Of a stretch of DNA of 64,000 nt, positions 6,401 through 34,903 are shown one piece after another. The notes under the pieces were generated by a model. It saw only the letters and a list, made by a program, of their open reading frames with translations. It did not search any database and was not told the DNA's origin. The position numbers and the translations under genes were made by a program. Location of the stretch: contig NZ_LWDV01000008.1 of the NCBI RefSeq assembly GCF_001693735.1, positions 288,357 through 352,356 of the forward strand. Reading direction: 5' to 3'. This stretch comes from Orenia metallireducens. Lineage in GTDB: Bacteria > Bacillota > Halanaerobiia > Halobacteroidales > Halobacteroidaceae. The first letter of the stretch is position 1; each line of letters begins with the position of its first letter.

Positions 6401-6429
6401 TTGAAATAAAAGCATGATTTGTGTATAAT
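6401..6429 (+). promoter_or_regulatory. Sigma-A promoter of codY
   Basis: TTGAAA (6401-6406) and a perfect TATAAT (6424-6429) with 17 bases between. It lies just after the hslU stop and about 50 bases ahead of the codY ATG. Because the -10 box overlaps a GTG at 6421, that upstream GTG cannot be the codY start for transcripts made here. Confidence 0.75.
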
Positions 6430-6477
6430 TTGATTAACTCCAATGTAAAATGGGTGAGAGTCAAGGGGGAAAAGTCT

Positions 6478-7257
6478 ATGGAAGAGTTACTAAACAAGAC
6501 CCGTAAGATAAATAGGTTGATTCAAAAATCTGCTGGTCATCCTGTTAACTTTAAGGAGATGTCTCATATCTTAAGTGAGACTATTGGGGCTAATGTGTAC
6601 ATAGTAAATGAAAATGGAAAGTTATTAGGGTATACTTTGATTGATGCTTTTGAATGTGATTTGATGTTTGAAGAGGTTATTAGTTCAGAGCAGTTCCCTG
6701 AGAGTTATAATGAGTGGTTGTTAGGTATCTATCATACTCGTTCTAATTATGAGCAGCAAGAAGGGCTTTGTGTATTTAAGGATAAGGAAGACTGTATCTT
6801 TAAACATAAGCTAACAACGGTTGTTCCTATTAATGGTGGGGGAGAAAGGTTAGGCACTTTAATAGCTGCTAGATTTGGTAAAGAATTTGATTCTAATGAT
6901 TTATTATTAGCAGAGTATGGGGCTACTGTAGTTGGTATGGAGATACTGAGGTTAAGAAGTGAAAAGATGGAAGAGGAGGCTCGTAAAAGAGCAGCAGTAG
7001 ATATTGCTCTACAGACTCTATCATATTCTGAATTAGAAGCTGTTGAACATATTTTTGAAGAATTAGATGGTACAGAGGGTTTATTGGTAGCAAGTAAGAT
7101 TGCAGATAGGGTTGGAATCACCCGTTCTGTTATAGTTAATGCCTTAAGAAAATTTGAAAGTGCTGGTGTAATAGAATCTAAATCCTTAGGGATGAAGGGA
7201 ACATATATTAAAATTTTAAATGACCGCTTAATTGAGGGGTTAGATAAATTTAAGTAA
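6478..7257 (+). CDS. codY: GTP- and branched-chain-amino-acid-sensing repressor CodY
   Basis: Global regulator that senses isoleucine/valine/leucine and GTP and represses nutrient-stress, and in many Firmicutes motility, genes. Start ATG 6478 gives 259 aa, exactly the usual length, begins [14 protein letters not shown] like the family, and is preceded by AAGGGGG; a longer frame open from 6421 is excluded by the promoter. The N-terminal GAF domain contains [14 protein letters not shown]-type residues (written here [14 protein letters not shown]), and the winged-helix DNA reader near residues 204-245 has [20 protein letters not shown], nearly invariant in the family. It sits between hslU and the flagellar leader as in B. 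subtilis. Confidence 0.97.
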
Positions 7258-7270
7258 AATTTTAGAATAA

Positions 7271-7308
7271 AAAGAGGAAGTATAAGAATATTCTTATACT
7301 TTCTCTTT
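7271..7308 (+). terminator. Hairpin terminator after codY
   Basis: A near-perfect 38-base inverted repeat centred between 7289 and 7290 (one G-T pair in 19). Only a short T-run (TTT) follows on the + strand, but A-rich sequence precedes it. It is probably the codY terminator. Confidence 0.7.
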
Positions 7309-7336
7309 GTGTTGAATAGTTTATTATCTTAAAGAT

Positions 7337-7365
7337 TTGATGTTAAAATCCCCTTAAGATATAAT
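7337..7365 (+). promoter_or_regulatory. Candidate promoter for the riboswitch/flagellar transcript
   Basis: TTGATG (7337-7342) and perfect TATAAT (7360-7365) with a 17-base spacer, just behind the codY terminator and about 180 bases ahead of the aptamer. It is the best sigma-A site between codY and the riboswitch. Confidence 0.55.
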
Positions 7366-7545
7366 ATAATTGTTGGCTTTTACATATGTTGTTAAAATTA
7401 TTATTGAAAATTAAAAAGGTATTATAATATAAAGATATAATTATTTATATTAGATTAATATACCTTAAAAATCAAAATGGAATTCTATATCTAAAGATGT
7501 TTTAATTAGGGTATAACAGATAAATAGTTACTAATAATTTTTTTT

Positions 7546-7628
7546 GTAAAGGGCACACTTATCGAAAGATAAGGTCGCAAAACTGAGGGTCTAAGGTATG
7601 TATCGTATACTATGATTGCCAGATTACC
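7546..7628 (+). promoter_or_regulatory. c-di-GMP-I (GEMM) riboswitch aptamer
   Basis: The sequence matches the GEMM-I pattern from memory: GGGCACAC, then a stem CTTATC-GAAA-GATAAG with a GNRA tetraloop (7558-7573), then GTCGCAAAACT (consensus GACGCAAAGCC), GGGTCTAAGG (the tetraloop-receptor side of P3), a variable P3 hairpin, and ATTGCCAGATTACC at the 3' end; GTAA (7546-7549) can pair with TTAC (7624-7627) as P1. The class binds cyclic di-GMP. A rho-independent terminator begins 30 bases downstream, so transcription termination is the likely output. In C. difficile a c-di-GMP-I element precedes the same flgB operon and turns it off when the ligand is high; the same direction is inferred here, not shown. 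Confidence 0.85.
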
Positions 7629-7657
7629 AAAAGAGGTTAGGAGTGTATAATTGTATG

Positions 7658-7692
7658 CTATTCCTTTCATATATTTTGGGGAATAGTTTTTT
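7658..7692 (+). terminator. Riboswitch expression-platform terminator
   Basis: CTATTCCTT (7658-7666) pairs with GGGGAATAG (7678-7686), two pairs being G-T, followed by six Ts (7687-7692). The 5' arm can alternatively pair weakly with GGAGTG (7640-7645), a possible antiterminator. Its place directly behind the aptamer makes it the likely regulated element. Confidence 0.8.
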
Positions 7693-7876
7693 GTCTTAAT
7701 AATAATTTAAAGCAACCTATCTTATTTAATTATTAGAGCTTCTTAATTTAAAACATTTATTTCAAAAAGTATGGTTGTTTTTAGGTAATATATTCTATCC
7801 CGATATAATTTTTGTTTGCCTTGGATTAATATTTAAACATTATAACAAAGTACTAGTTTGATGCAGTTTAATAAGT

Positions 7877-7905
7877 TTGACAATTTATAATGATACCTAT
7901 AAAAT
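7877..7905 (+). promoter_or_regulatory. Candidate promoter downstream of the riboswitch
   Basis: A perfect TTGACA (7877-7882) with TAAAAT (7900-7905) at 17 bases, or TATAAA at 15 bases. If active it would transcribe flgB without passing the riboswitch terminator. AT-richness makes chance likely enough for caution. Confidence 0.4.
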
Positions 7906-8429
7906 TAAAGAGTAAAAATATTATACTTTAAAGTAAGTGAATTTAATATTAGGATAGTTTGGTACTGTCTTATGCAAGTTACCTTTATATAGTAAGTCTA
8001 GTTTTATTTAAAAATAGTATATTTATGGAGAAATTTAAGGAAATTAATGAGAATAAATCGATTTCTTATCTGTTCGACAAATTTCATGTAAGTTGAAGCT
8101 AGCAAATCTACATATAGCACCAGTTAAAGGAGATAATACTTTAGCAATAAATAACATATGTTAGTGCATTTAGTGGAATAGATCTGAAATTTATAAGTAA
8201 TAAGGGCAGTTATAAATAATATTAATTTGATAAAAAATCTTTATTGGTGACTATATATGGTTATTGGTTATATTTTTTTGAAGGAATTTTAAAAGTAAAG
8301 TCGAAGTTAGGAGAGTAAGTAGCGAAAGTAAGTTTTAAGAAATTCTATAAGCTATAAAGGTATCATATTAATTTAGAATATTAGTACTGTAATAAAATAT
8401 ATCAAGACTAGTTAAGGAGGATATGTTTG

Positions 8430-8837
8430 ATGAAAATATTTAACAATAAGAATTTTGTTATTTTAGAAAAGAGTTTAGATGCATTGTCTAAAAATCATGA
8501 TGCTATATCTAACAACATATCTAATGTAGATACGCCTGGGTATAAAAGGCAATATGTATCTTTTAAAAATGAATTAGCAAATTTGTTAGAGAATAGAAAT
8601 GATTTGGCTGTAACTAACGATAAACATATATCTATTAACTCTCGAAATTTAACTTCTTTTGAAGGTAAGGTTAGAACTGAAGAGAATACTTCTATTAGAA
8701 ATGATGAGAATAATGTCGATATAGATGCTGAAATGTCAATGTTAGCTAAAAACACTTTAGAATATCAAGCTCTAGTACAGAGAATATCTAGTAAGTTCAA
8801 AGGTTTACAAACGGTTATACGACAAGGAGGTAGATAG
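8430..8837 (+). CDS. flgB: Flagellar proximal rod protein FlgB
   Basis: Rod subunit at the base of the flagellar axis. The 135-aa protein has the rod/hook N-terminal signature around SNNISNVDTPGYKR and a C-terminal coiled-coil segment ending FKGLQTVIR, both of which form the D0 helices. ATG 8430 is nine bases from AAGGAGG; a TTG at 8427 is in frame but less well spaced, and ATG 8423 is out of frame. It is the first gene of the 30-kb flagellar operon and flgC follows after two bases. Confidence 0.95.
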   Translation: MKIFNNKNFVILEKSLDALSKNHDAISNNISNVDTPGYKRQYVSFKNELANLLENRNDLAVTNDKHISINSRNLTSFEGKVRTEENTSIRNDENNVDIDAEMSMLAKNTLEYQALVQRISSKFKGLQTVIRQGGR

Positions 8838-34120: not shown

Positions 34121-34903
34121 ATGAAAAAATCAAATAATTTAAAAGAAGATATTCTATGGAATAAGTATAAAAATAGTAATTGCCAACAATCTAAAGAAGA
34201 ATTAATCCTAAGTTATACACCCTTGGTAAAGCATGTTGCAGGAAAGATTATAACTAAAATACCTGATGGATTTACCTTTGATGATTTATTGAACTATGGT
34301 TTTTTGGGATTAATTGATGCTATGGATAGATTTGATTTAAATAGGGAGATTAAGTTTTCCACCTATGCCGTTCCAAGGATAAGAGGTGCAATTTATGATG
34401 AAATTAGAAAGTTAGATTGGGTTCCACAATCAGTTAGAAGAAAGTCAAAGAGACTAACTAATACTTATTATCAATTACAAAAAAAATTAGGAAGAAACCC
34501 TAATGACGAAGAAGTAAGAACAGAATTGGGCTTGACTTCTGAAGAATTTAATGATTTATTAGTTGATGTTAATATTTCAGAGAATATCTCTTTAGAATCA
34601 TTCTTTAATCTTAAAGGTGGAGATAAGATAGAACTAAAAGATTTAATTAGTGACTCTGCTGATAAAGAGCCTGATAATATATTTTTCTATGATCAGATGA
34701 AAATGATTTTAGGTGAATCTATAGATAAATTACCTGAAAAGGAAAAATTAGTTATCTCCCTTTATTATTATGAAGATTTGACATTAACAGAGATAGGAGA
34801 AGTTATGGAGTTAACAACTGCTCGTATTTCGCAGTTGCATACTAAAGCTATTTTTCGATTGAGGGGATACCTTAGTCGGAAGAAAGATCTGTTATTTGCT
34901 TGA
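34121..34903 (+). CDS. fliA: Flagellar sigma factor FliA (sigma-D / sigma-28)
   Basis: Sigma factor for late flagellar and motility genes. The 260-aa protein has region 2 (LILSYTPLVKHVAGKI, FDDLLNYGFLGLIDAMDRFD, FSTYAVPRIRGAIYDE), region 3 (DWVPQSVRRK) and region 4 (LTLTEIGEVMELTTARISQLHTKA), in the order and size of FliA/SigD. GGAGG precedes the ATG. No clear sigma-28 promoter was found in this window, and no flgM. Confidence 0.96.
   Translation: MKKSNNLKEDILWNKYKNSNCQQSKEELILSYTPLVKHVAGKIITKIPDGFTFDDLLNYGFLGLIDAMDRFDLNREIKFSTYAVPRIRGAIYDEIRKLDWVPQSVRRKSKRLTNTYYQLQKKLGRNPNDEEVRTELGLTSEEFNDLLVDVNISENISLESFFNLKGGDKIELKDLISDSADKEPDNIFFYDQMKMILGESIDKLPEKEKLVISLYYYEDLTLTEIGEVMELTTARISQLHTKAIFRLRGYLSRKKDLLFA

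Follow-up and report, generated by a model that had tools for sequence, protein, structure and literature searches.

A c-di-GMP-I riboswitch in front of the flagellar operon of Orenia metallireducens and its probable bypass by a downstream promoter

Introduction

When a riboswitch precedes a flagellar operon, does it control all of the transcription that reaches the first gene? The question is raised by a 64,000-nucleotide stretch of DNA from Orenia metallireducens (the window), in which an initial annotation placed a c-di-GMP-I riboswitch with a terminator before flgB and proposed that high c-di-GMP ends transcription before that gene. The leader of 737 nt between the riboswitch terminator and flgB is absent from that annotation. 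The features of the locus, all on the forward strand, are as follows.

6421-7257, +: codY, the upstream gene, outside the switch (NF003170, 396 bits; TIGR02787, 368 bits)
7257-7322, +: terminator-like inverted repeat directly 3' of codY, with 33-nt arms that are 79% complementary and no spacer
7535-7546, +: 5' strand of P1, the outer aptamer helix, UAAUUUUUUUUG, pairing with 7628-7639 in the MFE structure
7542-7631, +: c-di-GMP-I (GEMM-I) riboswitch aptamer
7627-7639, +: 3' strand of P1, the putative switching strand, its CCAAAA (7627-7632) being able to form an antiterminator with UUUUGG (7674-7679)
7639-7665, +: predicted local antiterminator hairpin, in which 7639-7649 pairs with 7654-7665 and sequesters the 5' arm of the terminator
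7657-7692, +: intrinsic terminator, hairpin 7657-7687 (CTATTCC...GGAATAG) and six Ts at 7687-7692, approximately -10.5 kcal/mol
7877-7905, +: candidate second promoter, TTGACA-N17-TAAAAT
8282-8305, +: sigma-H-type candidate promoter, AGGAATTTT-N9-GTCGAA
8430-8837, +: flgB, with its ATG at 8430, the opening gene of the flagellar operon (TIGR01396, 115.8 bits, over the cut-off)

The riboswitch and its setting

Scanning the entire window with Rfam (cmscan) gave a sole match above the gathering score, to RF01051 at 7542-7631. With 69.4 bits and an E-value of 1.5e-11 the match exceeds the gathering score of 35, and it spans the full model (1-87 of 87), which bears out the assignment to the c-di-GMP-I class. 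The GEMM-I motifs quoted in the initial annotation are all present, the sequence and its alignment displaying the GAAA tetraloop hairpin, the CGCAAA junction and the tetraloop-receptor segment; no second riboswitch or other Rfam element near the gathering score was found in the leader. The extent originally given, 7546-7692, needs a small correction: the Rfam match begins at 7542 and P1 widens the aptamer to about 7535-7639. G7552 corresponds to G20 of Vc2, which is in line with c-di-GMP as the ligand that the RNA would bind. Position 20 of Vc2 acts as a selectivity factor and not as a hard filter (PMC9262584). Specificity for cGAMP was considered and rejected, the equivalent position here being a G.

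The flagellar context also holds, with TIGR01396 identifying flgB and the genes flgC, fliE and fliF following in that order; a gene for a FliA/WhiG-type sigma factor lies further downstream (34121-34903). On the other side, the inverted repeat that follows codY is conserved in a sister species (G001), and its terminator-like character sets codY transcription apart from the riboswitch. Between these elements the region immediately 5' of the riboswitch (7330-7534) is poorly conserved, and a confident promoter assignment there failed.

A hairpin with six Ts had been described 30 bases past the aptamer, and we find it at about that distance, at 7657-7692, with a loop of 11 nt. A generic terminator scan missed this hairpin because that scan accepts loops of 3-8 nt only. 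Both aptamer and terminator hairpin are kept in the sister species, with 27-28 identical bases per run. One 28-nt block of identity (7654-7681) includes the terminator loop, an identity which exceeds what a mere loop would need. Furthermore, the CCAAAA of P1 and the UUUUGG of the terminator loop are invariant between both species and in L006, a paralogous riboswitch.

Modelled switching

Folding of the growing transcript suggests how these two segments may be used. In the ligand-free RNA the antiterminator predominates when the transcript ends at 7679-7682 (0.72-0.89) and gives way to the terminator by about 7687 as the transcript lengthens, whereas with P1 locked, mimicking ligand, the antiterminator never forms. 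The transcript of the sister species behaves in the same way, and the antiterminator was predicted to form early, and the terminator after it, in all seven of the homologous platforms folded (two from flgB and five others, taken from this genome, G001 and G005). The full-length RNA ends as terminator with or without P1 (ddG 0.00 at 7687-7692); coupling at equilibrium is thus absent, and switching must be kinetic. The antiterminator that would exclude ligand-bound P1 is predicted as a transient structure only, in the two species and likewise in paralogs. Some paralogs show clear direct pairing between the P1 3' strand and the terminator 5' arm; in the flgB copies this pairing is weak (z approximately 0). 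Since the models share the P1 3' strand between ligand-bound aptamer and transient antiterminator, the OFF polarity first proposed agrees with them, and the riboswitch is most likely a transcriptional OFF switch.

Promoters beyond the terminator

Two sites in the long leader are candidates for promoters that would escape the riboswitch. The longest intergenic blocks identical to the sister species are 7875-7917, the terminator, two blocks of the aptamer and 8282-8305. The first of these, of 43 nt, encloses TTGACA-N17-TAAAAT, and this block is missing from a further relative (G002). A generic sigma-70 scan returned 12 promoter-like sites where 11.6 are expected from shuffles, so that for 7877-7905 conservation alone is informative. 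The surrounding stretch, 7774-7955, is about 90% identical in the sister species, which exceeds the identity of the flgB coding DNA, and is likewise absent from G002. Other readings of this conserved region were discarded: a shared open frame for a small ORF was not found in 7766-7960, folding of the same block as a structured RNA was no better than that of shuffles, and a sigma-D-like site, CCGATAT at 7800, is unconserved in the sister species. A mobile element or repeat as the origin of the leader was also rejected, no second copy of it being found elsewhere in the genome.

The second site, 8282-8305 (AGGAATTTTAAAAGTAAAGTCGAA), is identical at 24 of 24 positions in the sister species and is conserved in G002, which is without most of the long leader. 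It has AGGA and GAA boxes spaced as in a sigma-H promoter. The sigma-H consensus is RNAGGAWWW-N11-12-RNGAATWW, and the -10 of the present site reads GAAG, not GAAT.

We then compared relatives of the order. A strict form of the sigma-H-type pattern lies upstream of flgB in 12 of 13 genomes, and a looser form (AGGA and GAA boxes 16-18 nt apart) in all 13, whether or not a riboswitch is present; the pattern was derived partly from the sequences on which these counts were made. As positive controls, the classical sigma-H targets spoIIAA and spo0A each carry the looser pattern in 12 of 13 genomes, with boxes at the same spacing as here. The pattern occurs in 3-9% of shuffled leaders, not at all on the opposite strand, and at 2.6-6.9% per 300 bp in other windows of the same genomes. 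The sigH gene itself scores above its curated cut-off in each of the 13. In the six genomes of the order that bear the riboswitch, the aptamer is in every case 5' of the sigma-H-type site. Hence 8282-8305 is a candidate promoter of the sigma-H type, as judged from its boxes and their recurrence before flgB across the order. Beyond the order, the pattern was seen before flgB in Thermoanaerobacterium, Petroclostridium, a Sporomusaceae genome, Paenibacillus and others. A Bacillota MAG from outside the order has, at L101, an aptamer, a terminator, a sigma-H-like site and flgB in the same succession, with the elements some 81-292 nt upstream of flgB.

A model with partial control by c-di-GMP

As a riboswitch the element is unexceptional, both in its class and in its position; what stands out is the layout, which would allow it to be bypassed. 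Our reading, which we hold to be probable, is that a c-di-GMP-I OFF riboswitch precedes the flagellar operon and that one or more downstream promoters bypass it, such that c-di-GMP lowers flagellar expression and does not abolish it. The aptamer, the terminator, the order of the elements and their conservation are computed results; ligand binding, OFF polarity and promoter activity are inferred. Without ligand, CCAAAA in the P1 3' strand would pair with UUUUGG, which belongs to the terminator loop and 3' arm; the local hairpin would meanwhile keep hold of the terminator 5' arm, and RNA polymerase would continue. With c-di-GMP bound, P1 would be locked, the antiterminator blocked and transcription stopped near 7692. 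The switch would govern only RNA begun 5' of about 7535. Since the sigma-H-type site is downstream of the aptamer, termination at high c-di-GMP would be confined to transcripts started upstream, and the promoter at 8282-8305, perhaps together with the sigma-A-type one at 7877-7905, would yield flgB transcripts that lack the riboswitch. The predicted effect of c-di-GMP is a reduction that falls short of zero and is least while sigma-H is active. The proposal that high c-di-GMP ends transcription before flgB thus stands, by the modelled OFF logic, for transcripts begun upstream, but does not extend to complete shut-off, given the conserved sigma-H-type site and the second promoter-like block beyond the terminator.

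The published parallel is Cd1 (Cdi1_3) of C. difficile, a likeness noted from the outset and confirmed by the literature (PMC5386303, PMC3649979, PMC9262584). The two loci share the RNA class, the operon, the succession of aptamer and terminator and a long flgB leader, and the T+A+H antiterminator published for Cd1 resembles the P1 3' strand, terminator strands and CC-GG contact modelled here; in Cd1 the binding pocket is moreover unfolded by the antiterminator, by way of a G-C contact (PMC9262584). In contrast to Cd1, the present locus has a sigma-H-type promoter site between terminator and flgB. Bypass of a riboswitch has a precedent in the cmrRST leader of C. difficile, where a c-di-GMP riboswitch is followed by further promoters before the gene (PMC8844915). 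That system differs in being a class II riboswitch, an ON switch and attached to another gene, and its promoters, one autoregulated and the others in an invertible element, are unlike those of the present locus.

The likeness to C. difficile can be taken further, with all flgB transcription beginning 5' of the riboswitch and the leader sites being inactive or having some other role. The C. difficile promoter is located 496 bp 5' of flgB, and Cd1 and flgB are transcribed together (PMC3649979, PMC5386303), and the leader after the Cd1 terminator is also long (338 nt). One family of the same class, f3, shares the order of RF01051 aptamer, terminator and flgB, but has only 61-156 nt between aptamer and gene and no sigma-H-type site, an arrangement that is plainly Cd1-like. 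We nevertheless consider this rather unlikely for the present locus, where the sigma-H-type element ranks with the longest blocks of identity in the leader and is found upstream of flgB even in riboswitch-free relatives, as well as before spoIIAA and spo0A.

An ON switch, or a terminator uncoupled from the aptamer, would agree with the equal formation of the terminator with and without P1 at equilibrium, and close homologues of an aptamer can be ON or OFF switches (PMC9262584). Yet only one competing structure was found, and it draws on the P1 3' strand; P1 stabilised by ligand thus favours the terminator, and the two segments that would form that structure do not vary; we regard this alternative as very unlikely. 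An invertible DNA element would find a matching site between riboswitch and flgB, in a long leader, and C. difficile has its 154-bp invertible flagellar switch there (PMC5386303). No counterpart was found here: the inverted repeats in 7250-8450 are mostly chance-like, AT-rich matches of 70-80%, and a near-perfect pair of about 20 bp flanking a segment was not found in that interval, which makes such an element hardly credible.

Taking partial bypass as the preferred reading, a broader proposal is that transcription of the main flagellar operon, both in this order and in other spore-forming Firmicutes, is driven directly by the sporulation-phase sigma factor sigma-H, here through a c-di-GMP-insensitive promoter 3' of the riboswitch at the transition to stationary phase, with c-di-GMP governing the upstream promoter only. 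We rate the chances of this as even. The fla/che operon of B. subtilis depends on sigma-A and sigma-D, not on sigma-H. If the sigma-H-type promoter is active, stationary phase or entry into sporulation would be linked directly to motility, and the statement that c-di-GMP shuts off flagella would be just partly true in these halophiles. More generally, an operon preceded by a riboswitch need not be wholly under its control, as the conserved sigma-H-type site past the terminator illustrates. A partial search of the literature found no paper describing this arrangement of riboswitch and sigma-H-type promoter, and none on sigma-H before flgB or on c-di-GMP riboswitches in Halanaerobiales.

Riboswitches and c-di-GMP signalling in the class

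Seven RF01051 aptamers and twelve GGDEF domains are encoded in the genome, and c-di-GMP signalling is therefore to be expected. Across 41 genomes of the class, of which 37 have flgB, we compared where the aptamers and flgB lie; the nearest named relatives in the collection are Halonatronum and Halanaerobacter, and it may omit the genome of the window itself. A riboswitch lies no more than 1 kb 5' of flgB in 16 of the 37, spanning four families, which indicates that the tie between riboswitch and flagellar operon is old and not accidental. The present riboswitch is a further example of this putative control of flgB by c-di-GMP.

Vc2 position 20 is tied to selectivity between cGAMP and c-di-GMP, and several family f3 leaders differ from the present one in having A at its equivalent. 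Among flgB aptamers of relatives, A replaces G in L039, L055, L059 and L061, as it does in one copy away from flgB, L159.

Other RF01051 copies precede varied genes. L006 (G000:C9:714763-714851) is a near-copy of the flgB riboswitch and terminator, followed by a soluble chemoreceptor-like gene with Diacid_rec and MCPsignal domains and then by a GntP-type permease. L001 lies before a gene with an MCP domain, and L004 before a gene for a large surface-like protein adjoining a secretin gene. A related riboswitch, L007 (G000:C10:430553-430642), is followed by a gene for alpha-acetolactate decarboxylase, whose product has a signal-peptide-like start, and then by one for a TRAP-type DctP protein; both are unusual targets for c-di-GMP.
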